A DNA stretch of 64,000 bases, from contig NQMI01000199.1 of assembly GCA_002270565.1 (NCBI GenBank), positions 1 to 64,000 of the forward strand, in the 5' to 3' direction. How positions within the stretch are numbered: position 1 is the first letter of the stretch; each line of letters starts with the position of its first letter. The notes under the pieces were generated by a model that saw only the letters and a program-made list of their open reading frames with translations, did no database searches and was not told the DNA's origin. Positions 32,444 to 64,000 of the stretch are shown piece by piece. The stretch is from Stenocarpella maydis. Taxonomy: Eukaryota; Ascomycota; Sordariomycetes; Diaporthales; Diaporthaceae. The position numbers and the translations under genes were made by a program.

Positions 32444-32474
32444 TGGGGGGACCCGGGGGGGGGACCCGGGGGGG
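32444..32474. repeat. G-run/ACCC repeat at gap edge
   Basis: G homopolymers separated by ACCC (GGGGGGACCCGGGGG and so on) run straight into the Ns; G-rich repeats of this kind are a common cause of assembly breaks. Confidence 0.8.
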
Positions 32475-32480
32475 NNNNNN
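32475..32480. other. Assembly gap (6 N)
   Basis: Six N bases. The sequence on its two sides is therefore joined by scaffolding or an ambiguous consensus, not by continuous reads. Confidence 1.
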
Positions 32481-35400
32481 CATCATCTGCTCTAGGCGCG
32501 GGACGAAGCCTCGCATGTCCGGCAAACCTTGCTCAGCATTGCAATCGAGCGTTCGCCGTCGCCCCTTCTGGACATGACTTTCTTGCGAGTTGGTGGGGGG
32601 GGGGGGGGACCGGTCTCGCGCCATCTTCAGCCCTCGCCGCAGCACGTTGCCTTGCCGGACTGGGCAAATAAGATCGATCCCGCTGGACTGCAGCCCCGGA
32701 ACGAGGTGTCTTAGCCTCTCGTGCCTGTGAGGCGACGTCCGTCTCGAGGCATGTTCATTGACTAGTGGGTTCAAGGCCGCCGCCCCCTCGAGGTCCCGGC
32801 GCGCAGCTGTCTCTGTTACTTATCGGTGATCCTGCACAGAATTTTTGTGCTGCCAGTCAGGAAGCTTATTTCAGCGGATTTGTCTGTCCTCTCTTGGGAG
32901 CACCCATTGTGGTCTTGGTGGGATTGCTCTAACTGGGTGGTATGGCCGCCCTAAGGTTCATCGTAGGTTTTTGTGCTTTCTTGCCCCCCCCACCCAAAAA
33001 AAAGGAGTAAAAAGACCCGCTCTCATCGTGCGGAGAAAGGTCACCGCCGGGCAGGGCCAGGCCCCAGGCCCGGGCCTCCTTGACACAGTCTGCTCAAGGC
33101 CGTTTTTCTTCTTTCTTGGGGGCACTGGAGCTGATCTGCGACTTGGAACATTCTAGATGTGATTGTAATCCCGTGCACGTCGTAAGCAGGGTTTCCCACT
33201 CCCCTGGGTGACCGGCGCTTTACTGGGAGACAGTGTTGGATATTTTCATAGGCCGTCGGGGCATACATCTGGTTTCTTGGAGATGGTGTCAAATGTTCGT
33301 GTTTGCTTTGCAGAGACGTGCCTCCCCTTTCGTGCTCCTACCTTCTACTCGAGGTGGAGCGCGATCAGATGCTTTCTGCAACTGGAGATATAGTATACAG
33401 GTGGGAGCTATTAGTGGGCATCGTCGTCCCGTCACAGGTCAGCGCAATCACTATGTAGGATCAGTTCCATCCCGCTTTGCCGGTATGAGGAGAGGAGATT
33501 GACTCTGGGAGAAGCTTGTCCCTGTCTCGGGGCGAGGGCGGCAGTGCGAGTGATCCCACTGGGAGCGTGGAGTTGGGGCGCGTTTAATAAATGAGCCCTC
33601 GATTTCACCTGCTGGAACGTACCTAGGTATGTATGATTGTTTAGGCGACGAGGCTGAGCGCGGGTTCCGGCCTCTGGCGTGGTCAGGACGCTCGGTCTCT
33701 CAGCTTCTATCGAGGACATGAGCTAGGCTGCCTCTGATTTTGGATGGCCTTCAAAGGTTACGGTTATTTGGCAGGTGGTTTAAGGAGATCCGGTATTATG
33801 GTGGAAAGTGTGTAGGATACCTCTCACTGATTGCTCAACGGATTTCTGCGTCAGCGAACTCTCTACGAAGAGATTATGCAAAGACGATTTAGTTATTGTA
33901 CCTGGTGGTCTGGCCCTTGCTGGGGGACCAGGCGGCTCTTATTCTCTAAGTGTTCTCCAGTACATATCAACGAAACAAGCACTTCAAAATTCCAAAAGCC
34001 ATACAATGATGAATTTTGACCCGGAAATTCTAGCTACAAATCAAAAGCCACTATATCTGCAGTTATTTTAGAATAACAACAGATGTGGTAGATATCTTAC
34101 AGCTCGTTGCTTGTGTTATCATCAAAATTGCCATCTCATAGTTTCCATTTTCACTCTTCCCCCATCCTGCATCTATGTCCTAATGTGGACCGAATTTGTC
34201 TGTGATGATCTCCTTCCACCACATACAAGGCCGATTGTGGTTCAAGACCGCAGTATCTAAGGGCAGTAGTACTTTTTGCAGTTCACCGGGCAAAAACTGC
34301 AGCATTGAGAGTCAGCTTTCAAAGAACCATGGTAGGAGTTTCATCTAAACATAGCATGGATCGGGCCATAGTGTGGCCATAGCATTTGAGACAAAGGATC
34401 CAGGAGGGAAGTTCTTACTCCAAAGCGGTTCAAAATGACTCCAGAAGAATACAACACATTGTTTATCCACAATTGTATTACGACCTATGCACTTGACGCT
34501 GACAACTTTACTTTACAGAATCGTTTATGAGACCATGATATTGAAAATCACTTCCTCATTCTGTAGAAGAAAAGAGGAATTTCCAACTTGGATTGAGCCG
34601 GGCCACCGAGTTGTGCCACGGCAGCAGCAGGCTGTGTGCCGAAGTTGCGGGGTGGCATGATCCTGCGACTTCAGGTGCGACTTTGTGCATAGCCTTCATG
34701 AAGTGGGCCGTGAAGTGCTCCATCCACAGTCGGAGCCAAAATGTAATCTCGAATACCGAGGGAGCGGCATTTATACAGACAGTTTCGGACGTTGTTGACC
34801 TTCCTACTGCCAAAAGAAAAAAAAAAGTATCCCTGCCGCATTCAATGTTGTTGTCTTCATTCTCTCTGATTCTCTTCTATCATTCAGTCAGGCTAAAGAA
34901 CAGTTCTCAGAAACCCATCAACCTAGTTATTCCACAAGTATCGCGATGAACTCACCAGGATGACGGAAGTTTTCCTCAACCCTGGGCAAGCAGAGCAAAC
35001 TGCGCACTTAGCCCTGCCAGCCACTTGGTAGGATTTTGTGGAGCGGCATGTGGGGGGCACCTCAGTCCCGTAAGGCAACGGATGCCACAGCCTAAACCAC
35101 AAGTGGGTCTTATAACGAGTTTCCGTACAGAGATAAAAGACAGGAGCCTCACAAACAGAGGAAACTGTGAGCTCGGGTTTATGGCTGGGGAACAGAAGCC
35201 GTAAGAGACGGATAAAGCAATAAGGAAGCGTGTGTAGGAAGGACACCATGCCATGTCTTCTCTGCTGAGTCACAGAAACGTCATGTGGATATTGGCGAGT
35301 GGGAGACAAGTCAGGATCTGCACATCGCCGCGGTCGTGGGCCCTGTAAACTATAGTCCTCTGCAAAGTTCTCCACGTGCTGGCCGTTGGGCACCGGGTCA

Positions 35401-36611
35401 GCGGGTGCGGGAAGGCCAGCCAGAGGTGGAGAATGGATTTAGTTAGGCATCTTGCACGTGAGATCCTACTGAGATCTCCCACGTACAGGCCTCCGCACAA
35501 ATGGGGAAGAGCCTCTGATTATTTCCCATAGGATATCAAACCACGCCTCCTGTTGGGCCTAGCTGTTTTCGCTGGTTTCTCTTTCAACCCGGTCACAATT
35601 CCCTTGATAAACAAACGGAGCTGCGGCGGTCACCCATACAGTCGTAAACGCTCAGTATGGACGCAGCTGCATTAGTAGTCTTGTGATTGGAAGCAGGTTC
35701 AGGAGAAGACTAGCACTACATCTATAGTTACCAGCAGAAACTCCTCGTCCTCTCTCACAATACAGCAACTATGAATTAAGGAAGTGAGTGGGACGCTTTG
35801 TGTTTACGGGCCACACATGCATAATCACATTTCCAAGACGCATCAGGCACCTCAACGATTAGCCTCGAAATTATTGAATTAGTTCGAGTCCATTCTAAAC
35901 CTTCCAGACTCGCAGTAGCTGTGGCAGGGCATCCGCGTCTCGGCCTTGTGCATGCTCATCGCCGCGAGATGATCTCCCCACGGGATGTCACCTTCCTTCA
36001 ACCCATCTCGCCCGGGCATCTCTTCTCGCGGCCGATCCACAAGCGTCCCGCCCACAGGGCAGTCTCAGTCTCCTCAGATTGGCCACCACATGCACTTCCT
36101 CTCCAATCGCCGTCTCCATGGACCCTCCATTTTGAGATGCTCAAAGTCTAGTGGTCATAGGCCGAATAAAAACCAAATCTAAAGAGCCCATCGCGTTTTC
36201 ATGTTCTAAAATCCGACTGGAGTATGCTTTCTCTCCGTCCCCTCGGACAGTAAGACTAACGTTATCAAAAGTAGAAAAGACAATGCGAACAACTCCTAGC
36301 CAATGCAATGCGTGCGTGTGTGTCGAATGCTCCCTCAGCTCAGGATGAGGCAAAAAAAAGAGAAAAGAGAAAAAGAAAAAGAAGACAGGAAAAACATTGC
36401 CTCTATGCAGTTGCTCTCGTGTGTACGCCATCGCATGCTCTTCGTCATGAATGATGAAGCCGTGATCATCCAACCATTGAAATACTCCTTTGGTAAAGAA
36501 AAGATGAGCCCCCTCCAGGGAGCAGGATGGTCAGGTAGGAAAGAAGGAGGTAGGAAGGGGACATTTGATCAGATCTCATAAAAGATGTAGGGTGTTTGGG
36601 TTAAAAGATCC
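32481..36611. other. Intergenic, outer part of left arm
   Basis: No gene recognised. From 32955 on it is mirrored at 60344-64000. Frames such as 34593-34949 (+) and 34923-35393 (-) lack domains and splice support. It includes the 3' flank of the GH79 gene. Confidence 0.5.
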
Positions 36612-38501
36612 TTAGAAAAGGAAGTAGCCCGTCATTAGAGAAACAAAGGGTACAAGACATGTCACGAGGACGCCGGTCGACATTGTCGCCAGCGCCGGTG
36701 GTCCTGCAGACTGGGAGTCAGCGCCGGCACTAGAGGAACTGCCACCGCCGCTTGCGGAATTGCTTCTGTCAGGCTTACTCGTAGCCGATGCAGAGGATGA
36801 CTCGGAGGACGACCCCGCGGTGCTCCTGTGGGTGCCGGGACTGCGGGATGCTTGGGCGGCGCAGGCGGTCGCATCGGCCTCGAGGCCCACACCGAGTCGC
36901 GACTCGAGGTTGGCGACAACGGCCTGCGAGTCACGCACGTTGAAGGACAGAGTGCCGTCGTCGCCGACCGTCACCGTCTCGTCCGTGTCATCAACCTGCG
37001 TCTGCGTGCCCACGCTGTCCTGCTCGAAACTGACACCGTTCCATGTTGAGTTGAACTTGGCATCGGCACCCTCGTTGGTCAGGCGCGCCAGATGCACCGT
37101 GATGCCGGCCAGTGACGTTGGCAGCGACACTGACACGGTCACGTTTGCCTTGTCAGACTCTGTCGTGTTTGCCACCTTGCTGTTGAGCACGGCGATGGAC
37201 TGCAGCGAGCCGCTCTGGTAGATGGAGTAGGCCCTGACGTACTCGCTGTAGCCAGAGGGGATGCTGGAAAGTGTGTCCTGGTGGATCTGGGCGGCGCAGG
37301 TGGGGCCGATGATCTGGTTGAAGGCGGCGTGGCCGTAGTAGATGGGGCGGACGTGAGGGGGGCCGCCGTCGTTGTGGCCGGGCTGCCAGGCGCTGGTGAA
37401 GCTGTTGGCGGTCATGTGGAACTGAACACTGGTCATGTTGAGCGAGGCGGCCCAGAGGAGGAAGTTCAGCGTGTACAGTGCGCCACCGAAGGTGTCGCTG
37501 ATGTTGGAAACGCCCAGGGGCCCAACCATGCCCATCTCGCGCAGGGCGTACGGGAAGCCGGTCTCTTCTGCCTGGCCGATCTGGGTGACCCAGTCGGCGA
37601 ACTGGCTCTCGACGTAATCGAAGCTCATGATGAGGTCCATGGTCAGGGCCTGGCCCTGGGTCACGTCGACGAAGTACGAGTAGCAGTGTTGATTCCAGCT
37701 GGTCAGATACTCGACGCCGTTGAAGTTGGAGTCGACGCCAGACCTGTCCATCTGCTCGATCTCAAAGGTGGTACCGCTGGTGTGCGAGGTGCCGCCGGCC
37801 TCGAAGAAGGCGGGGGGCAGGCCAGCGGGCTCGAGGACGCGCTCGTAGACGGCAGCGGCACGCTCATGCCACTCCTCGGAGTAGGCAGAAGACTCCCAGG
37901 TACCGTTACGGAAACCGTTGGTGCTGTAGAGGTCTGGCTCATTGCCGATCTCGAAGGAGACGATGTCCAGGTTGTCGCACCTCTGGATGACCTGGCTGGC
38001 CATGTCGACAATCTTGTCGATGTAGTCGGCGTCATTGTAGGCCAGGTTCAGACCCCAGGTGAAGGGGGTGCCGGTGGGGAATCTGTTTGCAGCCTCGAAG
38101 AAGCGGGGCCCGATGAGCATGTTGTCCCAGGCGATGTTGCCGTCGCCAACCGAGTCGGGGTTTGTGATCTGAGCCCATCCGTCCTGAGACTCATCATAGA
38201 TCATGTAGTCCTGAGTGTTGCCGCCCAGACGGATGTGTGGTGGCTTGCCGGTGTAGTTGCCAAGGTTCTCGAGCAGAGTTATGGAGAGGCGGTTTGGCTC
38301 GTCCCTGCCGGTGTAGGCAAAGAGGTTGGAGGGCTCAATGCCGAAGCCGCCAAACGAGAGGTCGACGGTCTGGGAGATGTCCGAGGGGGCTGACTCTGAG
38401 ACCTCGAAGCTGAGGGGAGAAGCTGACTGGGCCAGGGCTGATGTGGCGAGGCTGGTGGAGGCCAGGGCGCCTGCAAAGGCTCGCGATCTGGGTGAGGCCA
38501 T
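36612..38501 (-). CDS. GPI-anchored GH79-family glycosidase (left-arm copy)
   Basis: An intronless gene of 629 residues. A signal peptide (about 1-25, ending ATSALAQS) leads into a GH79-type (beta/alpha)8 domain; fungal members include beta-glucuronidases and 4-O-methyl-glucuronidases acting on arabinogalactan and similar glycans. The general acid/base is Glu188 in FEIGNEPD, and the nucleophile is Glu322 in LREMGMVGP, both present. RLGGNTQDYM and the FHMTANSFTSAW region also follow the family. The beta-sandwich domain ends near 540. A Ser-rich stretch (SSSESSSASATSK, SGGGSSSSAGAD) and a hydrophobic tail (LVTCLVPFVSLMTGYFLF) follow, the usual layout of a GPI-anchored wall or surface protein. 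It is coded away from the palindrome axis. The exact substrate is not visible. A 370-codon antisense frame over it is a codon-bias shadow. Confidence 0.9.
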   Translation of the reverse strand: MASPRSRAFAGALASTSLATSALAQSASPLSFEVSESAPSDISQTVDLSFGGFGIEPSNLFAYTGRDEPNRLSITLLENLGNYTGKPPHIRLGGNTQDYMIYDESQDGWAQITNPDSVGDGNIAWDNMLIGPRFFEAANRFPTGTPFTWGLNLAYNDADYIDKIVDMASQVIQRCDNLDIVSFEIGNEPDLYSTNGFRNGTWESSAYSEEWHERAAAVYERVLEPAGLPPAFFEAGGTSHTSGTTFEIEQMDRSGVDSNFNGVEYLTSWNQHCYSYFVDVTQGQALTMDLIMSFDYVESQFADWVTQIGQAEETGFPYALREMGMVGPLGVSNISDTFGGALYTLNFLLWAASLNMTSVQFHMTANSFTSAWQPGHNDGGPPHVRPIYYGHAAFNQIIGPTCAAQIHQDTLSSIPSGYSEYVRAYSIYQSGSLQSIAVLNSKVANTTESDKANVTVSVSLPTSLAGITVHLARLTNEGADAKFNSTWNGVSFEQDSVGTQTQVDDTDETVTVGDDGTLSFNVRDSQAVVANLESRLGVGLEADATACAAQASRSPGTHRSTAGSSSESSSASATSKPDRSNSASGGGSSSSAGADSQSAGPPALATMSTGVLVTCLVPFVSLMTGYFLF

Positions 38502-38917
38502 ACTGGAGGTGGCGTGAATGCGACGCTGAACCTCAAACGTAACCTCTTCTTTTTAGTTGACTAATGCAGGAACCCCGAACCGACGACGTGGGTTGGGTTT
38601 ATTTGTGTTTTGGTCTGAGACCTGGTGTTGGAGATGACAGGCAGGCAATCAGGCCTGGGCCAGGAAAGGAGGGCAGGACAAGTGTAGGCGAACAAGGGTG
38701 GGCGAGATATGCCCGACTTTTGAGGAGACTTGACGATGGCACTTGGGCCAACAAAACACCAAGACGACGACGCAATCAAGAGCTTCGCTTGGAGGAAACA
38801 GGTCCCCACTCTAGTGCAGGCGGGAGGACTGACCTGATGGCGGGATTGCCAACGGTGACGGACTGACGGACGAACAGGACGGGCCAGACCGGACCAGACC
38901 AGATGGAGGCAGGGGTA

Positions 38918-38951
38918 GGAGGAGGAGGAGGAGGAGCAGGAGGAGGAGGAG
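38918..38951. repeat. GGA trinucleotide tract upstream of GH79
   Basis: GGA units with one GCA interruption, about 420-450 bp upstream of the GH79 ATG; on the gene strand it is a pyrimidine-rich (TCC)n tract. Mirrored at 58004-58037. Confidence 0.85.
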
Positions 38952-39973
38952 CCCCCAGAAGTAGTCTGGTCTGTACGGGCGCAGGGGTTGTGGACAAGAA
39001 CAAGGTTGATCAAAGAAACCGGGGCATCCAACAAAGGGCCCCCAATTTTGCAAGCAGACAATTAAACAGTAGGGAGGTAGTAATTGGTCTATCTGAGGGC
39101 GGGAGAGCGGGCGGGAGGGGATTGCGAAGGATGGGGCTCAGAAGATAAAAAAAAGGAGGCGCGAGGGAGGAGGAATGGTCAGGCTTGCAAGCACACAACA
39201 GGTGGCTCGAGATCACTCAAGTAGTTGTGGTCTGTCTCTCTCTCTCTTTCTCTCGCCAGTCACCAGTGACGGTGGCCGAATCAAACAAGCCGTCAAGTTG
39301 GCTGGTGACGATGATGTATGTTATGTTGATGCTGCATCTATAAAATTGGAGCCGCGACGGGAGGATCGACGGAGGAGTGGAGAGCGTCTGTATTGTCAGA
39401 TTGTGTGTGTGTGTGTGTGTGCTTGCTGCGCCAACAGTGATCCTTCAGGCCAAGAGTCAATCAAACCCATCAACGCGTCAATCTGTCCCAATATTTTCAA
39501 ACACAGCCAAGGCAGCGGGGTGCTTGACTGACGTTGGAGGGAGCGAAAGATGCCCACTTTACGGGGCTGGGCTGCGTGTAACAAGATTTGTACACCATCA
39601 AGACGGCAAGAAAAAGAAGACGGTAAGGAGGCGGGAGATGGAGAACGGCTGACGGAGTGGCAACTGCCATCTGGAGCATCTCGGTGCCGAGTGCAGTATT
39701 ATTATGAGGGAGAGAAAGGCCAGGGCAGGAAGGAAGGAAGCCAGCCAGCCAGCCAGGCCAGCCTGCCAGCCCGCCAGCCTGCCAACCTGCCATGCCACAG
39801 CAGCTTGGCCATTGAGGCAGACATGACACCGAAACCAGTCCAGTCACGCTTGGGACCTTGGCCAGCATGGGCGGCATTTGCTAACAACGCGTCACCTTTC
39901 CGGGTGAGGTCAGCTCCAGCGCCAGAGACGTGCTTAATAATGGTAGCATCTCCCCCGTTTTAATCTGCGGTGT

Positions 39974-39981
39974 TGACGTCA
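39974..39981. promoter_or_regulatory. CRE/ATF-type palindrome TGACGTCA (left arm)
   Basis: Perfect octamer 1.5 kb upstream of the GH79 start, mirrored at 56974-56981. Distance makes a direct role uncertain. Confidence 0.25.
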
Positions 39982-42352
39982 CCTTTTGGTACCTTTTCAC
40001 GCACTGACTGACGACTAGAACAAAACACAACAACCACAGCCCATGCTGCCCTACAGCTCCGCGTCAACAAACGGCCCTTTGCCAACCCGTCTCTAGTCCC
40101 TGCGCGGATTCCCGTCTCGAGACCAGCATCAACCCTACAGCTTTCCACCGCCACAACCGTCTCTCCCACCGCCCAAACTTGGGCCCGACATGGCCTGACG
40201 TACACTACATGACTGACATACCGCCCCCCGCAGGACTGGCAAAGATCACCGCCATGGAACAGGGGCACGGCCACGGCCACGGCCACGGCCCCGGAAGCCG
40301 GCTGCCCAAGCTCGCCCTGCCAGCCCTGCTCACCAGGCTCACCCAGCCCCCAGCTACTCTACCAGCAAGACGAGACAGGCGCACCGTGGTCACGACAGGA
40401 CTCGATCGCACCGCGACAGAGCTTGCCGGCTGCCGCCCGCCGCAGTCCCAGCCTGCTGGGTAAGCTCCGAAGCTGCGGGCCTGCCTGTACCTGTCATCAT
40501 CGATTGGCTTTCGGCTCCGTCCTTTCTCGGGACGCCGCATATACACCATACTCAGATTGCTCAGCCAAATGCCGTCCCCCTAGCGATATCCAACACGAGC
40601 GGCAGAGACAGCTGTCGCGCCTCATCGTGAGCCCTCCCTCGAGTCCATCCGTCCGTCAATGCTCGGAAGACCGGCCGCGACGCGCGTTTCTTCAACATGC
40701 AGCTGCAGCTGCAGCCCCATGCCAGGCTTGCAGGCTTGCAGCGTCTGGGCACTGGGCCCCAAGAAACCGGACCAAGCACGCAGCCTCGGCTCACAGCTCA
40801 GCTCAAAGAAGAACGTGCCGATGTGCCGTGCGTGGGCCAATTTCCCATGCTGACCATGATGCACAGCCAAATTTCGAGAACAGCAGGAATCATAATCGCC
40901 GATTCGCACGCAGCGCGGCTGATGACACCTGCACCTAACCCTGCCAGCCTACCCACAACCCCTCATGCCATGCATAAAAGCCTTGGAACCTTGGAAATAA
41001 TCCCCGTCGTCTGTGTCCAACAGCTTGGCGCCCTAGCCACGCATGAGCACCCGCATATGCACCTCCGTCCGGGAATAAACGAAACTGAGGGATAAACCAC
41101 CACAACCAGACAGCCACACGGCCAATAACACCTCGCTTCAGCACCGAGACTCACATCAACTACACAGACTATTTGCTTCTGCTTCCGACGATGGAGCAGA
41201 TGACCGGGAACCATCTTTGTCTTTTTCCAAACTTCAATCCTCCACGTGCACAATCTTCGCTTGACAAGTCCCTGTAGATCCCTTCATCGCCCACCCCGGG
41301 TCGCCTTGTGAGGCAATGCCCACAGCGTGACACATTGTTTCCTGGGATATATATGATCCCTAAAAGATCAACGCGACCCGTCCGCCTCCCTGCTGGCATC
41401 AGTCCGGCATTACATTGACGATCTCATCTCCTCGACCGTTGGTCTGGAGCTCGAGAACTGCTCAAAACTGGAGCTGTGCGAGACGGGGAAACACTGGGGG
41501 ATTAATTAACGCAGCCGCCCAAAAACACACCACCCACAAAAGTCCAGACACATACCAATGGTCCTCATTAGGCGCCTCACGCCAGTGCATCCACGGGCGC
41601 CTATCCTGACGTAAACAGCAAGGACCGACGCTGAGGTTTTGGCATGGCTTTTTTTTCTACCATGCCCCATCGTAATCGTTTGTTTTGTGACTGGTGTGCG
41701 TACGCGGTACAGTATGGTTTCGAAACCTCATGCTGGCGCGCCGGTGGCCCCCTAATCGATTCCCTCCCTGTCCCGAGCAAGGGCCCGGCCCCTCCTCTCC
41801 TTTCGCGGGCCTGGCCTTTGCCGATCCCCGCCCACACCAGCAAGAACCGCGCCTGGTCCGACGGCCAGGTTCTGCATTTCGTACGGCGGATTGAAATCGC
41901 GCACGCCCTTTGACATACGTCTAGAATATGACGTCCTGTCTAGGGGAGAGAAACGACCAGCATGATAATGTCCTCTCGCATGGGCAAGTATCCAGGTGAC
42001 CGGAGCGCCAAACACATGTGCTTGGTCATGTCCGGCCCTGGTGCGGCCCTGACCCGGCCTTTCCACAATCCCAGGCTGCCAGTGACAAAATAAATGCTCG
42101 GGGGGTTTCGTCAACACCAACGGTCCATAGCAAGCGACAGGCTACCTACTCAAATGACCCATAGCCTAAACAGTACAGATGACTGAGGAACACTCGCCCG
42201 TCAAAACACTTCTTGCCTCGCTCCGAAATTAGTACAGAAGAAAGGTCTTTTATTCTTGGAGCGATCCGCCTCACAAAGAGTAATTACCACCTCGACCCCG
42301 CGTGCTCAGTGCCTCCCTCGTAATGGCCAGCCCAGGGAGGGTGGGGGGTCCC

Positions 42353-45300: not shown

Positions 45301-45511
45301 GAACCTTCCTCCGACGGCACGGCTCGCACGCCTTGGGGTTCTTCTCCATCCTCCTGCCGGCCGCAACCGCAGTTCCGGCGACAACAGGCTTCCGCGCCGC
45401 GACGGCGACGGCAGCAACGGCAGCACCGGCAGCACCGGCAGCCTCCCCGGCCGCGCGCGCCCTGGTCCGGCGTCCGGTGCGGTGCGGCCGCGAGGCGAGG
45501 GACAGCCACAC
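42353..45511 (-). CDS. Zn2Cys6 transcription factor (left-arm copy)
   Basis: Three exons on the minus strand: 45511-44854, 44646-44406 and 44099-42353, with introns of 207 and 306 bp. The phases fit and the joined length is 2646 nt (881 residues). The Zn2Cys6 cluster has spacing C-x2-C-x6-C-x5-C-x2-C-x6-C (residues about 62-88; core ACEPCRRRKVRCNGQ), followed by a basic linker. The middle region (AYILPFFTNEELDKMLLHLY through CRKAFALGLHREA) is the fungal-specific transcription factor domain. The C-terminus has a Q/H/N-rich stretch (about 700-730) and Gly/Ser-rich parts. ATG 45511 is the first in frame; ATG 45349 (residue 55, MEKNPKACEPC) may be the true start because the first 54 residues are Ala/Arg-rich. 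It is divergent from the dehydrogenase, which hints that it may regulate it; this is inference. Confidence 0.85.
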
Positions 45512-46395: not shown

Positions 46396-46436
<41 letters not shown>

Positions 46437-48477: not shown

Positions 48478-48492
48478 GGGCACGCGGTGGTG
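48463..48492. repeat. Axis of the giant palindrome
   Basis: The symmetry centre lies in CGTGCCCGGGCACG, between 48477 and 48478. The 15 bases on each side encode HHRVP and GHAVV on the + strand; the second set still fits the dehydrogenase family, so this 30-bp stretch may be palindromic in the intact gene too. Confidence 0.8.
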
Positions 48493-50518: not shown

Positions 50519-50559
<41 letters not shown>

Positions 50560-51443
50560 AAAGATAACCACGCAAAATTTTGTCTCAGATGCGTTGTAGG
50601 GGCCGGTCAACCTACATTTTGAGAGAACGAGAACCGCCCCAGAGTGAACGAAGAAACTTGGCATTGACCGCGAGCTGTCTGGAGTCATGGGCATCTTCCT
50701 GGATTCCAGCCATTCACGCAGCTTAGGGAAAGAACATGACTGGTCTGGGATAAGCTCAAAAGGCTTTCGCTGTTTAGGAGGTGTTGCTCCGGTATTTGTG
50801 TGCTAATGCAAGTGCTGTTTTGGTGTAGGTACTTGGATCCAACCACCATACTTCAGCTCCTGTCCTTTAATTGGAAGATGATCCCCCTTGGCCATTCATC
50901 CCAATGCATATGGTCCACAATCCTGCGGATTTACAGTCGAAGATGGGCTGATGATGAAGTCTATCTCGGCACAGGCCACCTCTATTGAGGGAGCATGGTG
51001 ATGCGGAATTAGCGCCTGGTCTGCGCCTGAGATAACCGATAGCTCCTGGGCCAACGTGGGACTAGTCGGCTGCACATCATCAAATGCGTCGGATTTACAG
51101 GCAGCCCCACTTTGATCGGAAAAAACACAACTTCTTCCCGTCACCACACCCTTCTCCCCACCAAAGGCCACCTCTAAAACCGTCGACAAAGGCAAAACAT
51201 AGATCCGATCTCTCAGTTGTCAGTTCGAGACTGATGTCAACGGCGCTGGCGAGGACCTCTTGATCCGGAACGTCACCCCACCGCAGGACGTCCCAGGGCA
51301 CTCGGAATTAGTGGGCACGTCCCTATCCCCGCGCCTTGCCTCCCTTGGGCCCCAAGGTCCTCTCCCACGCCGGCTGGACAGAAAGTAAAGTGGTTTCCAG
51401 CACGACGGGGGCTGCAGGAGGCCTTGGTGCGTGAGCCGTCACG
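48919..51443. other. Divergent intergenic region, mirror copy (right arm)
   Basis: Mirror of 45512-48036. No gene; contains the 38-nt A run. Confidence 0.55.
50520..50557. repeat. 38-nt A homopolymer (right arm)
   Basis: The mirror of 46398-46435, same length. Confidence 0.95.
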
Positions 51444-54400
51444 GTGTGGCTGTCCCTCGCCTCGCGGCCGCACCGCACCGGACGCCGGACCAGGGCGCGC
51501 GCGGCCGGGGAGGCTGCCGGTGCTGCCGGTGCTGCCGTTGCTGCCGTCGCCGTCGCGGCGCGGAAGCCTGTTGTCGCCGGAACTGCGGTTGCGGCCGGCA
51601 GGAGGATGGAGAAGAACCCCAAGGCGTGCGAGCCGTGCCGTCGGAGGAAGGTTCGGTGCAACGGCCAGACGCCCTGCAACAGGTGTGACAGGAAGCCCGG
51701 GGACTGTGTGTACCGCCTGCGCACGCGCATCCGGAAGAGCAATGCGCAGAGGGCTGCCGATGCTGCTGCCGCCGCCGCCGCCGCCGCTTCCGCCAACGGT
51801 GCAGCCGGCGGGACCGTAAATGTGGCCGAGGGTCCGCCTCCGACTGCGACGCCCGCCTCTGACGCGTGCCCTGTTGTCGGTGCCTCTGCTTCTAGTGGTG
51901 CTGGGAGCGAGAATCCCACGTCTCTCCCGGTGCCCCCGGCGGGCCATGATACGCAGTCCGCGTTCCGGAGGGACGTGGCTGAGGCTGGCGAGGGCCCGAC
52001 GTCCGACTCGGCCATCTACCAGAGCATCGCTGCTGTGCCTCAGAGGAGTGACATCGAGCCTGTCCAGGGGGGCACTGCGCGTCTGTTTTATGGACCGGCC
52101 TGTGAGTACAGCTCCTCTTTCGGGTCACCTGCATTATTCCGGCAGTCCAGATCACGTAGAGCCCAGACGAGCTTCTGACGCGTTGCCGCCTACCCACCTG
52201 TCCTCCAGACTGTCCTTGGTTTATTTCTCTCCTGCCTCGTGCCAGCTTACGTGACGCCTCCACCATGATACTTTGCGTGGCAGCAACTAACACGTGAGCA
52301 TCCTGTAGCACAATTTGCCTTCCTGCAACAAGTACACCGAGGCATCTTGTCATCCACCGGACCCCATGGTCAGCAGGACCGTGAGGTCCAGGAGGGGGGC
52401 CCTGGTCTAGACCTCTTCCTCCAACGGAGCTTCTTTTTTGGCACGGCACCAAGGTTTGATGCCATTCCGATGCATCGACCAGCAAATAGTCTGTTCGGTG
52501 AAGTTCCTCTGGACAGGGCTAAATTGTTCCTGGAGAGATACAAAGCATGGTAAGCTTGTGTCTCCCTTTGCTTCGTGCAGTTTTTGCGACCTCCTTCTGT
52601 GCTGCGCCACTGGTTTTTTGGTTGGAAGCCATGTTACATGCCTCTGTCGGTTTAGGACCCTCTCACTGTGGATGGGAGCCGAAAGGCACCTGTGCAGGAT
52701 GGCATCGGGCGAATGGCTGTGATTCGAGACAATGATCTTCGCCTCTCATTCGCCCCAGCCTCAACCTTTGACCTGGGGCAAGGTGGCACCTCAACTCTAA
52801 GACCTGGCCACCCAATTTGCTTGAAGTCGGGCACTGGTCACTAACAAGCAGATAGGTCCGCGTACATACTCCCGTTTTTCACCAACGAGGAGCTGGACAA
52901 GATGCTTCTCCACCTGTACAGTAGTGACGAGACCAAGCCATCCCAAACCAAAGCCCTCATCGTCGCGGTGCTGGCTCTTGGGGCGCTGGCCACCCCCCAT
53001 ACCGACGCCGCAGAGGAGCTAATGGCCAGGGCCAAGTACGAGGCGATCCTCTTCGACGACACGGTCAGCCTGCCGATGATCCAGTTCTCGCTGCTGTTGG
53101 CAGAGTACCAGACCAGCATGGGCAGGCCGAACCTGACCTACCTCATGCTCGGCACCGCGTGCCGCAAGGCCTTCGCCCTCGGCCTCCACCGCGAGGCGGC
53201 CAACTCGCTGACGCGGTCCGAGGACACGGAGAAGTGCCGGACCACGCTGTGGTGCCTGTACTTCCTGGAGAGCTGGTACACGATGATGGTGGGGCGGGAG
53301 AGCATGCTCAAGATGTCGGATATCTCGTCGCCGTTCCCGGAGAACCAGCCCTTCATCGTGACGCTAAGCCGCCTCGCGTACATTGGCGAGCAGTGCTCCA
53401 AGACCATCTACAACACGCACCGGTACGACTCGCTGCGGAAGCTCTTCGTGGCGGCCGAGAACATCCACGCGCAGCTGCGCGAGTTTGCCAGCAAGCACGG
53501 GATCGGGGCGGCCGGGCTGGACGGCGGCGGAGGGGGCGGCGGCAGCGCCGATGGATCAGGGCTGCCGGGGGCCGAGCACCACCCGCTACGGCTGCTGCTG
53601 CACAACCTGTACTGCCACACGATCCTGCTGACGTTCCGGCCCTTCCTGGTGGCCGACTACGCGCTGGCGTCGAGGCCGTCGCAGGACGCCGCGGGCGCCA
53701 TGTGGCTGCGGCAGGCGTGCCGGCAGGCGACCAACACGGCGCAGGACTGCATCATGTACTGCTACTCGCAGCTCCAGGCGGACGAGGTGGCACGCACGTC
53801 GCGGTACCACGGCTTCTTCCTCGAGTCGAGCTGCGCGGTGCTCTTCTTCGACATGCTGCGCCACCCGTCAAAGTACGCCTACAACATCGAGTTCATCCAG
53901 ATGGCCATCGCGAGCGTCAACCTCATGATGGACGACGAGCCCGTCACCAACGCGCGCAACTCGCTCAGGAAGATCCTCCGAGTCGTCGAGGAGACAATCT
54001 CCAGGCAGAAGATCGCCGGCACGACGGCCGCGACCACGAGCGGCCTGCCGGCCTTCACGGACCCGCTGCTCCAGACCGCCCCCAACCCGCCCCTGTTGTC
54101 CCCAGTGTCGTCCCTCATGGGCGGCGGGCAGGAGCACCAGCACAGCAACAACAACAACAACAACCAACACCAGCACCAACATCACCAGCACCACCAGCAG
54201 CAGCAGCAATACCAGCAGCAGCACTCCCACGGCATGGTCCAGTTCCCCTCGCTGCACGCCCCGCCCTCCTCCGCCAACCAGCTCATCTATTTTAGCGACC
54301 TCCCCGGCTCGCTGGGCGGCCCCACCACCGGCAGCGACACATCCATGGGCGGAGGTGCCACCACGCCGCTCGCCATGGCCGGGCTAGGCGGGGAGGCGGA

Positions 54401-54602
54401 CGCGTTCGGCGGCGGCGAGGGCCTCGACCCGCTCGCGCACTTCCACTACGACGTGCTGACGACGGACCTGTTCAGCTTCTTCCCGCTCAACATGACCCCG
54501 CCGTCAGCAAACGGCGGCGGCAGCAGCAGCATCGTCGCCGCCGCCGATGGCGCCGGTATGGGCGAGAGTCCGCTCGATAACGGCGGGGGGCCGGGGGCGT
54601 GA
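51444..54602 (+). CDS. Zn2Cys6 transcription factor (right-arm copy)
   Basis: Mirror gene, exons 51444-52101, 52309-52549 and 52856-54602. Junctions: GCC T|GTGAGT..GTAG|CA gives Ser; GCA TG|GTAAGC..ATAG|G gives Trp (KAWSAYILPFF). The product equals the left copy except for one Ala to Val change in the SSSI-(A/V)-AAADG segment near the C-terminus (base 54535 T against C on the gene strand of the left arm). This change is in a low-complexity tail and is unlikely to matter. The alternative start is 51606. Confidence 0.85.
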
Positions 54603-57600
54603 GGGACCCCCCACCCTCCCTGGGCTGGCCATTACGAGGGAGGCACTGAGCACGCGGGGTCGAGGTGGTAATTACTCTTTGTGAGGCGGATCGCTCCAAG
54701 AATAAAAGACCTTTCTTCTGTACTAATTTCGGAGCGAGGCAAGAAGTGTTTTGACGGGCGAGTGTTCCTCAGTCATCTGTACTGTTTAGGCTATGGGTCA
54801 TTTGAGTAGGTAGCCTGTCGCTTGCTATGGACCGTTGGTGTTGACGAAACCCCCCGAGCATTTATTTTGTCACTGGCAGCCTGGGATTGTGGAAAGGCCG
54901 GGTCAGGGCCGCACCAGGGCCGGACATGACCAAGCACATGTGTTTGGCGCTCCGGTCACCTGGATACTTGCCCATGCGAGAGGACATTATCATGCTGGTC
55001 GTTTCTCTCCCCTAGACAGGACGTCATATTCTAGACGTATGTCAAAGGGCGTGCGCGATTTCAATCCGCCGTACGAAATGCAGAACCTGGCCGTCGGACC
55101 AGGCGCGGTTCTTGCTGGTGTGGGCGGGGATCGGCAAAGGCCAGGCCCGCGAAAGGAGAGGAGGGGCCGGGCCCTTGCTCGGGACAGGGAGGGAATCGAT
55201 TAGGGGGCCACCGGCGCGCCAGCATGAGGTTTCGAAACCATACTGTACCGCGTACGCACACCAGTCACAAAACAAACGATTACGATGGGGCATGGTAGAA
55301 AAAAAAGCCATGCCAAAACCTCAGCGTCGGTCCTTGCTGTTTACGTCAGGATAGGCGCCCGTGGATGCACTGGCGTGAGGCGCCTAATGAGGACCATTGG
55401 TATGTGTCTGGACTTTTGTGGGTGGTGTGTTTTTGGGCGGCTGCGTTAATTAATCCCCCAGTGTTTCCCCGTCTCGCACAGCTCCAGTTTTGAGCAGTTC
55501 TCGAGCTCCAGACCAACGGTCGAGGAGATGAGATCGTCAATGTAATGCCGGACTGATGCCAGCAGGGAGGCGGACGGGTCGCGTTGATCTTTTAGGGATC
55601 ATATATATCCCAGGAAACAATGTGTCACGCTGTGGGCATTGCCTCACAAGGCGACCCGGGGTGGGCGATGAAGGGATCTACAGGGACTTGTCAAGCGAAG
55701 ATTGTGCACGTGGAGGATTGAAGTTTGGAAAAAGACAAAGATGGTTCCCGGTCATCTGCTCCATCGTCGGAAGCAGAAGCAAATAGTCTGTGTAGTTGAT
55801 GTGAGTCTCGGTGCTGAAGCGAGGTGTTATTGGCCGTGTGGCTGTCTGGTTGTGGTGGTTTATCCCTCAGTTTCGTTTATTCCCGGACGGAGGTGCATAT
55901 GCGGGTGCTCATGCGTGGCTAGGGCGCCAAGCTGTTGGACACAGACGACGGGGATTATTTCCAAGGTTCCAAGGCTTTTATGCATGGCATGAGGGGTTGT
56001 GGGTAGGCTGGCAGGGTTAGGTGCAGGTGTCATCAGCCGCGCTGCGTGCGAATCGGCGATTATGATTCCTGCTGTTCTCGAAATTTGGCTGTGCATCATG
56101 GTCAGCATGGGAAATTGGCCCACGCACGGCACATCGGCACGTTCTTCTTTGAGCTGAGCTGTGAGCCGAGGCTGCGTGCTTGGTCCGGTTTCTTGGGGCC
56201 CAGTGCCCAGACGCTGCAAGCCTGCAAGCCTGGCATGGGGCTGCAGCTGCAGCTGCATGTTGAAGAAACGCGCGTCGCGGCCGGTCTTCCGAGCATTGAC
56301 GGACGGATGGACTCGAGGGAGGGCTCACGATGAGGCGCGACAGCTGTCTCTGCCGCTCGTGTTGGATATCGCTAGGGGGACGGCATTTGGCTGAGCAATC
56401 TGAGTATGGTGTATATGCGGCGTCCCGAGAAAGGACGGAGCCGAAAGCCAATCGATGATGACAGGTACAGGCAGGCCCGCAGCTTCGGAGCTTACCCAGC
56501 AGGCTGGGACTGCGGCGGGCGGCAGCCGGCAAGCTCTGTCGCGGTGCGATCGAGTCCTGTCGTGACCACGGTGCGCCTGTCTCGTCTTGCTGGTAGAGTA
56601 GCTGGGGGCTGGGTGAGCCTGGTGAGCAGGGCTGGCAGGGCGAGCTTGGGCAGCCGGCTTCCGGGGCCGTGGCCGTGGCCGTGGCCGTGCCCCTGTTCCA
56701 TGGCGGTGATCTTTGCCAGTCCTGCGGGGGGCGGTATGTCAGTCATGTAGTGTACGTCAGGCCATGTCGGGCCCAAGTTTGGGCGGTGGGAGAGACGGTT
56801 GTGGCGGTGGAAAGCTGTAGGGTTGATGCTGGTCTCGAGACGGGAATCCGCGCAGGGACTAGAGACGGGTTGGCAAAGGGCCGTTTGTTGACGCGGAGCT
56901 GTAGGGCAGCATGGGCTGTGGTTGTTGTGTTTTGTTCTAGTCGTCAGTCAGTGCGTGAAAAGGTACCAAAAGGTGACGTCAACACCGCAGATTAAAACGG
57001 GGGAGATGCTACCATTATTAAGCACGTCTCTGGCGCTGGAGCTGACCTCACCCGGAAAGGTGACGCGTTGTTAGCAAATGCCGCCCATGCTGGCCAAGGT
57101 CCCAAGCGTGACTGGACTGGTTTCGGTGTCATGTCTGCCTCAATGGCCAAGCTGCTGTGGCATGGCAGGTTGGCAGGCTGGCGGGCTGGCAGGCTGGCCT
57201 GGCTGGCTGGCTGGCTTCCTTCCTTCCTGCCCTGGCCTTTCTCTCCCTCATAATAATACTGCACTCGGCACCGAGATGCTCCAGATGGCAGTTGCCACTC
57301 CGTCAGCCGTTCTCCATCTCCCGCCTCCTTACCGTCTTCTTTTTCTTGCCGTCTTGATGGTGTACAAATCTTGTTACACGCAGCCCAGCCCCGTAAAGTG
57401 GGCATCTTTCGCTCCCTCCAACGTCAGTCAAGCACCCCGCTGCCTTGGCTGTGTTTGAAAATATTGGGACAGATTGACGCGTTGATGGGTTTGATTGACT
57501 CTTGGCCTGAAGGATCACTGTTGGCGCAGCAAGCACACACACACACACACACAATCTGACAATACAGACGCTCTCCACTCCTCCGTCGATCCTCCCGTCG

Positions 57601-58453
57601 CGGCTCCAATTTTATAGATGCAGCATCAACATAACATACATCATCGTCACCAGCCAACTTGACGGCTTGTTTGATTCGGCCACCGTCACTGGTGACTGGC
57701 GAGAGAAAGAGAGAGAGAGACAGACCACAACTACTTGAGTGATCTCGAGCCACCTGTTGTGTGCTTGCAAGCCTGACCATTCCTCCTCCCTCGCGCCTCC
57801 TTTTTTTTATCTTCTGAGCCCCATCCTTCGCAATCCCCTCCCGCCCGCTCTCCCGCCCTCAGATAGACCAATTACTACCTCCCTACTGTTTAATTGTCTG
57901 CTTGCAAAATTGGGGGCCCTTTGTTGGATGCCCCGGTTTCTTTGATCAACCTTGTTCTTGTCCACAACCCCTGCGCCCGTACAGACCAGACTACTTCTGG
58001 GGGCTCCTCCTCCTCCTGCTCCTCCTCCTCCTCCTCCTACCCCTGCCTCCATCTGGTCTGGTCCGGTCTGGCCCGTCCTGTTCGTCCGTCAGTCCGTCAC
58101 CGTTGGCAATCCCGCCATCAGGTCAGTCCTCCCGCCTGCACTAGAGTGGGGACCTGTTTCCTCCAAGCGAAGCTCTTGATTGCGTCGTCGTCTTGGTGTT
58201 TTGTTGGCCCAAGTGCCATCGTCAAGTCTCCTCAAAAGTCGGGCATATCTCGCCCACCCTTGTTCGCCTACACTTGTCCTGCCCTCCTTTCCTGGCCCAG
58301 GCCTGATTGCCTGCCTGTCATCTCCAACACCAGGTCTCAGACCAAAACACAAATAAACCCAACCCACGTCGTCGGTTCGGGGTTCCTGCATTAGTCAACT
58401 AAAAAGAAGAGGTTACGTTTGAGGTTCAGCGTCGCATTCACGCCACCTCCAGT
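54603..58453. other. Intergenic between transcription factor and GH79, mirror copy (right arm)
   Basis: Mirror of 38502-42352, with the same GGCCGT/GGCCAC, GGCT, CA and CT tracts and the CCT tract before the GH79 start. No gene recognised. Confidence 0.55.
56974..56981. promoter_or_regulatory. CRE/ATF-type palindrome TGACGTCA (right arm)
   Basis: Mirror of 39974-39981. Confidence 0.25.
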
Positions 58454-60343
58454 ATGGCCTCACCCAGATCGCGAGCCTTTGCAGGCGCCCTGGCCTCCAC
58501 CAGCCTCGCCACATCAGCCCTGGCCCAGTCAGCTTCTCCCCTCAGCTTCGAGGTCTCAGAGTCAGCCCCCTCGGACATCTCCCAGACCGTCGACCTCTCG
58601 TTTGGCGGCTTCGGCATTGAGCCCTCCAACCTCTTTGCCTACACCGGCAGGGACGAGCCAAACCGCCTCTCCATAACTCTGCTCGAGAACCTTGGCAACT
58701 ACACCGGCAAGCCACCACACATCCGTCTGGGCGGCAACACTCAGGACTACATGATCTATGATGAGTCTCAGGACGGATGGGCTCAGATCACAAACCCCGA
58801 CTCGGTTGGCGACGGCAACATCGCCTGGGACAACATGCTCATCGGGCCCCGCTTCTTCGAGGCTGCAAACAGATTCCCCACCGGCACCCCCTTCACCTGG
58901 GGTCTGAACCTGGCCTACAATGACGCCGACTACATCGACAAGATTGTCGACATGGCCAGCCAGGTCATCCAGAGGTGCGACAACCTGGACATCGTCTCCT
59001 TCGAGATCGGCAATGAGCCAGACCTCTACAGCACCAACGGTTTCCGTAACGGTACCTGGGAGTCTTCTGCCTACTCCGAGGAGTGGCATGAGCGTGCCGC
59101 TGCCGTCTACGAGCGCGTCCTCGAGCCCGCTGGCCTGCCCCCCGCCTTCTTCGAGGCCGGCGGCACCTCGCACACCAGCGGTACCACCTTTGAGATCGAG
59201 CAGATGGACAGGTCTGGCGTCGACTCCAACTTCAACGGCGTCGAGTATCTGACCAGCTGGAATCAACACTGCTACTCGTACTTCGTCGACGTGACCCAGG
59301 GCCAGGCCCTGACCATGGACCTCATCATGAGCTTCGATTACGTCGAGAGCCAGTTCGCCGACTGGGTCACCCAGATCGGCCAGGCAGAAGAGACCGGCTT
59401 CCCGTACGCCCTGCGCGAGATGGGCATGGTTGGGCCCCTGGGCGTTTCCAACATCAGCGACACCTTCGGTGGCGCACTGTACACGCTGAACTTCCTCCTC
59501 TGGGCCGCCTCGCTCAACATGACCAGTGTTCAGTTCCACATGACCGCCAACAGCTTCACCAGCGCCTGGCAGCCCGGCCACAACGACGGCGGCCCCCCTC
59601 ACGTCCGCCCCATCTACTACGGCCACGCCGCCTTCAACCAGATCATCGGCCCCACCTGCGCCGCCCAGATCCACCAGGACACACTTTCCAGCATCCCCTC
59701 TGGCTACAGCGAGTACGTCAGGGCCTACTCCATCTACCAGAGCGGCTCGCTGCAGTCCATCGCCGTGCTCAACAGCAAGGTGGCAAACACGACAGAGTCT
59801 GACAAGGCAAACGTGACCGTGTCAGTGTCGCTGCCAACGTCACTGGCCGGCATCACGGTGCATCTGGCGCGCCTGACCAACGAGGGTGCCGATGCCAAGT
59901 TCAACTCAACATGGAACGGTGTCAGTTTCGAGCAGGACAGCGTGGGCACGCAGACGCAGGTTGATGACACGGACGAGACGGTGACGGTCGGCGACGACGG
60001 CACTCTGTCCTTCAACGTGCGTGACTCGCAGGCCGTTGTCGCCAACCTCGAGTCGCGACTCGGTGTGGGCCTCGAGGCCGATGCGACCGCCTGCGCCGCC
60101 CAAGCATCCCGCAGTCCCGGCACCCACAGGAGCACCGCGGGGTCGTCCTCCGAGTCATCCTCTGCATCGGCTACGAGTAAGCCTGACAGAAGCAATTCCG
60201 CAAGCGGCGGTGGCAGTTCCTCTAGTGCCGGCGCTGACTCCCAGTCTGCAGGACCACCGGCGCTGGCGACAATGTCGACCGGCGTCCTCGTGACATGTCT
60301 TGTACCCTTTGTTTCTCTAATGACGGGCTACTTCCTTTTCTAA
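58454..60343 (+). CDS. GPI-anchored GH79-family glycosidase (right-arm copy)
   Basis: The mirror copy of the gene at 36612-38501, with an identical 629-residue product. All motifs (signal peptide, GNEPD with Glu188, REMG with Glu322, Ser-rich linker, GPI tail) are intact, so both copies would work if the duplication is real. The upstream 450 bp, also identical, hold a pyrimidine-rich (CCT)n tract at about 58004-58037, a common feature of highly expressed fungal promoters. If the palindrome is an artefact this entry is the same gene as the left one. Confidence 0.85.
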   Translation: MASPRSRAFAGALASTSLATSALAQSASPLSFEVSESAPSDISQTVDLSFGGFGIEPSNLFAYTGRDEPNRLSITLLENLGNYTGKPPHIRLGGNTQDYMIYDESQDGWAQITNPDSVGDGNIAWDNMLIGPRFFEAANRFPTGTPFTWGLNLAYNDADYIDKIVDMASQVIQRCDNLDIVSFEIGNEPDLYSTNGFRNGTWESSAYSEEWHERAAAVYERVLEPAGLPPAFFEAGGTSHTSGTTFEIEQMDRSGVDSNFNGVEYLTSWNQHCYSYFVDVTQGQALTMDLIMSFDYVESQFADWVTQIGQAEETGFPYALREMGMVGPLGVSNISDTFGGALYTLNFLLWAASLNMTSVQFHMTANSFTSAWQPGHNDGGPPHVRPIYYGHAAFNQIIGPTCAAQIHQDTLSSIPSGYSEYVRAYSIYQSGSLQSIAVLNSKVANTTESDKANVTVSVSLPTSLAGITVHLARLTNEGADAKFNSTWNGVSFEQDSVGTQTQVDDTDETVTVGDDGTLSFNVRDSQAVVANLESRLGVGLEADATACAAQASRSPGTHRSTAGSSSESSSASATSKPDRSNSASGGGSSSSAGADSQSAGPPALATMSTGVLVTCLVPFVSLMTGYFLF

Positions 60344-63300
60344 GGATCTTTTAACCCAAACACCCTACATCTTTTATGAGATCTGATCAAATGTCCCCTT
60401 CCTACCTCCTTCTTTCCTACCTGACCATCCTGCTCCCTGGAGGGGGCTCATCTTTTCTTTACCAAAGGAGTATTTCAATGGTTGGATGATCACGGCTTCA
60501 TCATTCATGACGAAGAGCATGCGATGGCGTACACACGAGAGCAACTGCATAGAGGCAATGTTTTTCCTGTCTTCTTTTTCTTTTTCTCTTTTCTCTTTTT
60601 TTTGCCTCATCCTGAGCTGAGGGAGCATTCGACACACACGCACGCATTGCATTGGCTAGGAGTTGTTCGCATTGTCTTTTCTACTTTTGATAACGTTAGT
60701 CTTACTGTCCGAGGGGACGGAGAGAAAGCATACTCCAGTCGGATTTTAGAACATGAAAACGCGATGGGCTCTTTAGATTTGGTTTTTATTCGGCCTATGA
60801 CCACTAGACTTTGAGCATCTCAAAATGGAGGGTCCATGGAGACGGCGATTGGAGAGGAAGTGCATGTGGTGGCCAATCTGAGGAGACTGAGACTGCCCTG
60901 TGGGCGGGACGCTTGTGGATCGGCCGCGAGAAGAGATGCCCGGGCGAGATGGGTTGAAGGAAGGTGACATCCCGTGGGGAGATCATCTCGCGGCGATGAG
61001 CATGCACAAGGCCGAGACGCGGATGCCCTGCCACAGCTACTGCGAGTCTGGAAGGTTTAGAATGGACTCGAACTAATTCAATAATTTCGAGGCTAATCGT
61101 TGAGGTGCCTGATGCGTCTTGGAAATGTGATTATGCATGTGTGGCCCGTAAACACAAAGCGTCCCACTCACTTCCTTAATTCATAGTTGCTGTATTGTGA
61201 GAGAGGACGAGGAGTTTCTGCTGGTAACTATAGATGTAGTGCTAGTCTTCTCCTGAACCTGCTTCCAATCACAAGACTACTAATGCAGCTGCGTCCATAC
61301 TGAGCGTTTACGACTGTATGGGTGACCGCCGCAGCTCCGTTTGTTTATCAAGGGAATTGTGACCGGGTTGAAAGAGAAACCAGCGAAAACAGCTAGGCCC
61401 AACAGGAGGCGTGGTTTGATATCCTATGGGAAATAATCAGAGGCTCTTCCCCATTTGTGCGGAGGCCTGTACGTGGGAGATCTCAGTAGGATCTCACGTG
61501 CAAGATGCCTAACTAAATCCATTCTCCACCTCTGGCTGGCCTTCCCGCACCCGCTGACCCGGTGCCCAACGGCCAGCACGTGGAGAACTTTGCAGAGGAC
61601 TATAGTTTACAGGGCCCACGACCGCGGCGATGTGCAGATCCTGACTTGTCTCCCACTCGCCAATATCCACATGACGTTTCTGTGACTCAGCAGAGAAGAC
61701 ATGGCATGGTGTCCTTCCTACACACGCTTCCTTATTGCTTTATCCGTCTCTTACGGCTTCTGTTCCCCAGCCATAAACCCGAGCTCACAGTTTCCTCTGT
61801 TTGTGAGGCTCCTGTCTTTTATCTCTGTACGGAAACTCGTTATAAGACCCACTTGTGGTTTAGGCTGTGGCATCCGTTGCCTTACGGGACTGAGGTGCCC
61901 CCCACATGCCGCTCCACAAAATCCTACCAAGTGGCTGGCAGGGCTAAGTGCGCAGTTTGCTCTGCTTGCCCAGGGTTGAGGAAAACTTCCGTCATCCTGG
62001 TGAGTTCATCGCGATACTTGTGGAATAACTAGGTTGATGGGTTTCTGAGAACTGTTCTTTAGCCTGACTGAATGATAGAAGAGAATCAGAGAGAATGAAG
62101 ACAACAACATTGAATGCGGCAGGGATACTTTTTTTTTTCTTTTGGCAGTAGGAAGGTCAACAACGTCCGAAACTGTCTGTATAAATGCCGCTCCCTCGGT
62201 ATTCGAGATTACATTTTGGCTCCGACTGTGGATGGAGCACTTCACGGCCCACTTCATGAAGGCTATGCACAAAGTCGCACCTGAAGTCGCAGGATCATGC
62301 CACCCCGCAACTTCGGCACACAGCCTGCTGCTGCCGTGGCACAACTCGGTGGCCCGGCTCAATCCAAGTTGGAAATTCCTCTTTTCTTCTACAGAATGAG
62401 GAAGTGATTTTCAATATCATGGTCTCATAAACGATTCTGTAAAGTAAAGTTGTCAGCGTCAAGTGCATAGGTCGTAATACAATTGTGGATAAACAATGTG
62501 TTGTATTCTTCTGGAGTCATTTTGAACCGCTTTGGAGTAAGAACTTCCCTCCTGGATCCTTTGTCTCAAATGCTATGGCCACACTATGGCCCGATCCATG
62601 CTATGTTTAGATGAAACTCCTACCATGGTTCTTTGAAAGCTGACTCTCAATGCTGCAGTTTTTGCCCGGTGAACTGCAAAAAGTACTACTGCCCTTAGAT
62701 ACTGCGGTCTTGAACCACAATCGGCCTTGTATGTGGTGGAAGGAGATCATCACAGACAAATTCGGTCCACATTAGGACATAGATGCAGGATGGGGGAAGA
62801 GTGAAAATGGAAACTATGAGATGGCAATTTTGATGATAACACAAGCAACGAGCTGTAAGATATCTACCACATCTGTTGTTATTCTAAAATAACTGCAGAT
62901 ATAGTGGCTTTTGATTTGTAGCTAGAATTTCCGGGTCAAAATTCATCATTGTATGGCTTTTGGAATTTTGAAGTGCTTGTTTCGTTGATATGTACTGGAG
63001 AACACTTAGAGAATAAGAGCCGCCTGGTCCCCCAGCAAGGGCCAGACCACCAGGTACAATAACTAAATCGTCTTTGCATAATCTCTTCGTAGAGAGTTCG
63101 CTGACGCAGAAATCCGTTGAGCAATCAGTGAGAGGTATCCTACACACTTTCCACCATAATACCGGATCTCCTTAAACCACCTGCCAAATAACCGTAACCT
63201 TTGAAGGCCATCCAAAATCAGAGGCAGCCTAGCTCATGTCCTCGATAGAAGCTGAGAGACCGAGCGTCCTGACCACGCCAGAGGCCGGAACCCGCGCTCA

Positions 63301-64000
63301 GCCTCGTCGCCTAAACAATCATACATACCTAGGTACGTTCCAGCAGGTGAAATCGAGGGCTCATTTATTAAACGCGCCCCAACTCCACGCTCCCAGTGGG
63401 ATCACTCGCACTGCCGCCCTCGCCCCGAGACAGGGACAAGCTTCTCCCAGAGTCAATCTCCTCTCCTCATACCGGCAAAGCGGGATGGAACTGATCCTAC
63501 ATAGTGATTGCGCTGACCTGTGACGGGACGACGATGCCCACTAATAGCTCCCACCTGTATACTATATCTCCAGTTGCAGAAAGCATCTGATCGCGCTCCA
63601 CCTCGAGTAGAAGGTAGGAGCACGAAGGGGAGGCACGTCTCTGCAAAGCAAACACGAACATTTGACACCATCTCCAAGAAACCAGATGTATGCCCCGACG
63701 GCCTATGAAAATATCCAACACTGTCTCCCAGTAAAGCGCCGGTCACCCAGGGGAGTGGGAAACCCTGCTTACGACGTGCACGGGATTACAATCACATCTA
63801 GAATGTTCCAAGTCGCAGATCAGCTCCAGTGCCCCCAAGAAAGAAGAAAAACGGCCTTGAGCAGACTGTGTCAAGGAGGCCCGGGCCTGGGGCCTGGCCC
63901 TGCCCGGCGGTGACCTTTCTCCGCACGATGAGAGCGGGTCTTTTTTACTTCTTTTTTTTGGGTGGGGGGGGCAAGAAAGCACAAAAACCTACGATGAACC
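60344..64000. other. Intergenic, outer part of right arm
   Basis: Mirror of 32955-36611; no gene recognised. It holds three of the four arm-to-arm differences, all beyond 63,620. Confidence 0.5.

Follow-up and report, generated by a model that had tools for sequence, protein, structure and literature searches.

Contig C110 folds back on itself over its last 32 kb, which raises the question of whether this symmetry exists in the chromosome or was made when the assembly (312 contigs, 53,543,916 bases in total) was built. The window, i.e. the whole stretch of 64,000 bases analysed here, comprises bases 1-64000 of the contig, which ends at 64,482. Comparison of the window with itself returned a single inverted match, 32955-64000 against the same interval, at 99.974% identity, with the axis at 48477|48478 and 0 mismatches over the 2,000 bases next to it on each side. 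Position 32955 is merely the mirror image of the last base of the window and not the true start of the palindrome. On the whole contig the symmetric part begins at 32481, immediately behind six N, and extends to base 64473; the features that define it are as follows.

32445..32480, no strand: G-rich tract followed by six N (32475-32480), the outer limit of the left arm
32481..48477, plus strand: left palindrome arm, 15,997 bases, from the self-comparison
48478..64000 and on to the contig end at 64,482, minus strand: right palindrome arm, 16,005 bases, the left-arm sequence reversed

The two arms give 15,998 aligned columns with 99.969% identity and 5 differences, and a homopolymer of 38 bases is equally long in the two (46398-46435 and 50520-50557). 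The first-pass annotation, which was made from the letters of the window, had described a spacerless and near-perfect palindrome of at least 31 kb with an identity of about 99.97% or higher; both statements agree with the self-comparison, the length having been slightly understated, since the palindrome measures ~32,000 bases with the contig end included. As a chance level, we tested 48,320 axes in the leftmost 48.4 kb of the window and found perfect palindromes of ≥12 bp centred at 14 of these, the longest being 16 bp, and the symmetry of C110 is thus far beyond chance.

The symmetric part, bounded by the N gap and the end of the contig, corresponds to one whole contig piece followed by its reverse complement. 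Both arms reach the same G-rich tract; the right arm exceeds the left by 9 bases and has no flank of its own, as C110 stops 9 bases past the symmetric end. The N run at 32475-32480 is the only one in the window. On the left side the sequence reads GGG NNNNNN CATCATC, while the last bases of the right arm, when reversed, read GGG ACGGAC CATCATC. The six N probably represent six bases that remain visible in the right arm. Elsewhere in the assembly, single-N gaps, which are left by some scaffolders, are present on C234, C232 and C230 (L046, L048 and L050), and the contigs C236 (L025) and C231 (L049) start with 1,319 N and 3,079 N, respectively, possibly sequence that was withheld.

Each arm carries the genes listed below, as predicted from open reading frames (ORFs) and domain matches.

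36612..38501, minus strand: glycoside hydrolase gene with a GH79 C-terminal domain, mirrored at 58454-60343
42353-44053, minus strand: ORF with a fungal transcription factor domain
44777-45511, minus strand: zinc cluster ORF
51444-54602: mirror of the transcription factor and zinc cluster ORFs
48037..48477, plus strand: N-terminal half of a zinc alcohol dehydrogenase gene (ADH_N, E 2e-23), cut at the axis
48478-48918, opposite strand: mirrored N-terminal half of the dehydrogenase gene

The transcription factor and zinc cluster ORFs (42353..45511) are possibly parts of one gene. Position 34296-34447 holds a dispersed repeat of ~150 bp (also seen in L036-L039), with at least 40 matches in the genome at 81-91% identity, a count that is a lower bound since 39 of 181 candidates were scored; five aligned copies have sharp ends in common. 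Scans of the window with Rfam and for tRNA genes gave no match, including for this repeat.

The axis cuts the dehydrogenase gene near residue 151. Using P0162 (358 aa), the closest full-length homologue found, the half on C110 is 83% identical to residues 2-151, and a reading frame on another contig, C7, is 86% identical to residues 223-358, i.e. the C-terminal half. A search of the genome with P0162 gave 32 matches, of which both C110 arms (84%, residues 2-154) and C7 (82%, residues 206-358, a match that begins with some unrelated residues) were the only ones above 80% identity; next came a 59% paralogue on C281 and the others were weaker. By homology, the halves on C110 and C7 fit one gene split between two contigs, and C110 and C7 are most likely true chromosomal neighbours that would be joined via this gene. 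No contig of the assembly carries this dehydrogenase gene intact. The middle ~70 codons (~210 bp, presuming that there is no intron) were not found in the assembly, where a noisy, frame-shifted copy could escape the search. Reads that cross the axis into normal dehydrogenase sequence had been proposed in the first-pass annotation as the sign that would speak against a real palindrome; in the assembly, the C-terminal half of the gene is indeed present, on C7, but the ~210 bp between the two pieces were not recovered.

A chromosome end was also considered. An inversion at a chromosome end, as suggested earlier, is not supported: the axis lies inside a gene that continues elsewhere, and the list of tandem repeats in the window holds no TTAGGG-type array (the count of TTAGGGTTAGGG on the plus strand is 0). 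With the axis within a gene whose other half is on C7, a telomere or hairpin chromosome end at this position is rejected.

The sequence at the axis itself was compared with homologous dehydrogenases.

48463..48492, no strand: axis region, probable native short inverted repeat, codons HHRVP|GHAVV

The 15 bases past the axis encode G-H-A-V-V and the next codon R, and ten homologues have G/A/S-H-F-V/A-V-R/K/Q at the same positions without gaps. These six residues score on average 17.5 (BLOSUM62) against the homologues, compared with a mean of -5.9 (s.d. 4.9) for 133 control positions in the same gene half, one of which is higher (19.2). Because the residues past the axis fit the homologues, the dehydrogenase gene itself probably bears a short inverted repeat here, the native DNA being absent from the assembly; the repeat is probably imperfect, as ten of ten homologues have F where C110 has A. 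In the genome, the central 24 bases of the axis were found only at the axis itself (≤2 mismatches allowed), and a 161-base query across it gave two matches, both of which are the C110 axis.

An inverted repeat of this kind bears on a second explanation, a real inverted duplication by fold-back, present in the strain that was sequenced or in a part of its nuclei (breakage-fusion or ODIRA type). Breakage or fork stalling close to the dehydrogenase gene would be followed by the folding of a hairpin at the short inverted repeat, from which replication would produce a spacerless palindrome. Apart from the probable position of the axis on a native repeat, this is in keeping with inverted junctions in yeast, which according to the sections of PMC10766183 used here form at pre-existing interrupted repeats of 2-14 bp. 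Moreover, both arms halt at the same G-rich tract, and a real palindrome could exceed the assembled length. The short inverted repeat, however, can seed a snap-back molecule, a self-overlap of a contig end or a real fold-back alike, and does not discriminate between these.

A second doubtful join lies on C7. Near 62319-62327 (L014, L031) the C-terminal half of an FAD monooxygenase gene, identified by its FAD_binding_3 and Phe_hydrox_dim domains, is attached to the dehydrogenase half in head-to-head orientation, and the GAGCAC at the join is readable as part of either gene. Homologues of this monooxygenase half, among the best 120 of 761 matches, include Diaporthe ilicicola (83%), D. amygdali (81%) and three Cytospora records (70-75%), and others among these 120 listed matches reach 86%. 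Judged from these homologues, the fungus is probably a member or a close relative of Diaporthe, in the Diaporthales. The N-terminal half of the monooxygenase lies at the end of contig C247, where the identity to P0059 is 83% for residues 1-76 and 84% for residues 76-367. The last 1,420 bases of C247 (L030, 2357-3776) align colinearly to C7:62253-63837, and of the 1,686 columns 1,201 are identical, 118 are mismatched and 367 contain gaps; the first columns align poorly since C7 is still dehydrogenase sequence there. The C247 tail is error-rich and AC-rich, as if a long read had remained uncorrected at the end of the contig. C247 continues straight through the monooxygenase gene, at odds with the join on C7, and judged from these alignments C7 is probably chimeric at the dehydrogenase/monooxygenase join, the conflict depending on one error-rich contig end. 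As C110 folds back and C7 appears chimeric on either side of the ~210 bp stretch, the assembly appears to have failed at this single spot, with both contig ends there misjoined. Had a reciprocal inversion taken place between the dehydrogenase gene and the monooxygenase gene, their N-terminal halves should be joined to each other; this is rejected, as C247 runs into the monooxygenase C-terminal half and C110 folds back.

The five differences between the arms, taken from the arm alignment, are given with their left-arm positions (left arm/right arm; no strand).

32612: G/-
33005: G/A
33009: -/A
33328: T/-
42420: G/A

All five lie within or beside homopolymers or short repeats. Four fall within the outermost 850 bases, for which the binomial P is 4e-5, or 6e-4 when 33005 and 33009 are counted as one event, the 850-base limit having been chosen post hoc. 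The differences would look more like consensus errors near a contig end than like mutations spread over two arms. The one at 42420/54535 alters a single residue (A/V) in the transcription factor ORF and could be a consensus error or an allele. A third explanation is that two slightly different versions of the 16-kb contig, from two haplotypes or from merged assemblies, were joined head to head via a shared palindromic end; the five differences, including this amino acid change, speak for it and would then be real alleles or differences between assemblies. That would still be a joining artefact. Given that the differences sit at the outer end and at homopolymers or short repeats, as consensus errors do, and that there is no further sign of two haplotypes, we regard such a join of two versions as very improbable indeed.

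Taken together, it is highly likely that the palindrome is an assembly artefact, made when a 16-kb piece and its reverse complement were connected within a gene; most likely, the palindrome is absent from the chromosome and no cell carries it. C110 holds a 16-kb piece, from the G-rich tract to the middle of the alcohol dehydrogenase gene, followed by the same piece reversed. In our proposal, the gene would continue in the chromosome through the ~210 unassembled bases into C7, from ~62,320 downwards. The true link between C110 and C7 would have been lost at this weak spot; presumably, the end of C110 was then connected to its own reverse complement at the gene's short inverted repeat, and the end of C7 to the unrelated monooxygenase gene. 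As to the source of the fold-back, we favour a read or library molecule of the fold-back (snap-back) type that closed a hole in the coverage; the second choice would be a contig end that overlapped its own reverse complement.

Several lines of evidence speak for this artefact. The arms are within 9 bases of each other in length and run from the N gap to the contig end; the sequence expected past the axis appears to be present elsewhere in the assembly, on C7; C7 is itself probably chimeric at the same spot, contradicted by C247; and the arm differences lie at homopolymers or short repeats, four of the five in the outer 850 bases. Fold-back reads are, in the text cited of PMC12870357, an artefact on record for long-read sequencing. 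Against it, both arms have a clean consensus, the middle of the dehydrogenase gene was not recovered, the conflict between C7 and C247 depends on one error-rich contig end, short inverted repeats may seed real fold-backs as well (PMC10766183, sections as above), and two arms that end at one hard tract would suit a longer real palindrome too. A real fold-back has in turn to account for the other half of the dehydrogenase gene, retained on C7 with at least the flanking bases fetched, for the second, chimeric join ~210 bp away that the C247 end contradicts, for a right arm without its own flank where the contig stops, and for arm differences that cluster at the outer end. Hence a real fold-back duplication in the strain or in some nuclei seems to us quite improbable, and the same low weight is given to the specific form in which a spacerless palindrome of at least 32 kb, hairpin-capped at the inverted repeat of the dehydrogenase gene, coexists with nuclei that have the intact locus.

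The first-pass annotation had likewise leaned towards an artefact, a wrong contig join being one of the options named, or a very recent event. The lean is upheld on other grounds, namely the other gene half on C7, the probable chimera there and the structure of a piece plus its reverse complement, but not on the identity of the arms from which it was argued: near-identity says little about age where the same reads served to build or polish both copies, and that argument is weak because such copies are near-identical whatever the age of the event.

We also searched for similar structures and for further copies. No comparable palindrome was present in seven small contigs, four of which were covered whole and three with 10,000 of their 11,379-13,241 bases; the longest inverted match there was 542 bp (97%), in an AT-rich contig. 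Among 29 loci screened, inverted matches >1 kb were restricted to the five C110 loci that span the axis, followed by one of 285 bp (L028). Since the small contigs hold no similar palindrome, the artefact may be a single event; seven contigs and 29 loci are far too small a sample for a rate of palindromes. Used as a DNA query against the genome, the arm gave 40 matches, all to the ~150 bp dispersed repeat, and the 10 kb left of the gap gave 13 short matches at a TG-repeat region. Both long queries missed C110 itself and are unusable as proof that there is no other copy; for this reason the absence of other copies is argued from the 161-base axis query and the P0162 search.

The C110 case is mostly a warning on the assembly. 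A 16-kb stretch with a GH79-type glycoside hydrolase gene, the transcription factor ORFs and half a dehydrogenase gene is duplicated in it, and because it is present twice, gene counts and structural-variant calls based on the assembly would be wrong here. The case also offers a test that can be done without reads: where the axis of a palindrome cuts a gene, the other half of that gene is sought elsewhere in the same assembly.

Our literature search identified no case of self-joined contigs, by which we do not claim that such cases are absent from print. Related artefacts are known at the level of reads. According to the passages of the sources drawn on here, fold-back reads in long-read data entangle assembly graphs (PMC12870357). 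Whole-genome amplification commonly yields palindromic reads, and an assembly had fewer inverted duplications once these reads were split (PMC6218980). Base calls from nanopore data are reportedly of low quality within inverted duplications (PMC7229812). Going by those passages, the fold-back artefacts of nanopore and PacBio reads, with missed adapters and amplification palindromes (PMC12870357, PMC6218980), resemble C110 in the spacerless join of a sequence to its own reverse complement with a central breakpoint; in contrast to these, C110 is a consensus contig rather than a read, and the gene probably has a short inverted repeat at the position of the axis. ODIRA and related inverted duplications in yeast, as described in the sections used of PMC10766183, share with C110 an inverted junction at a (here probable) pre-existing short inverted repeat, whereas the yeast junctions lie at interrupted repeats (2-14 bp) and have read support, while C110 is known from the assembly alone and the far side of its gene is retained.
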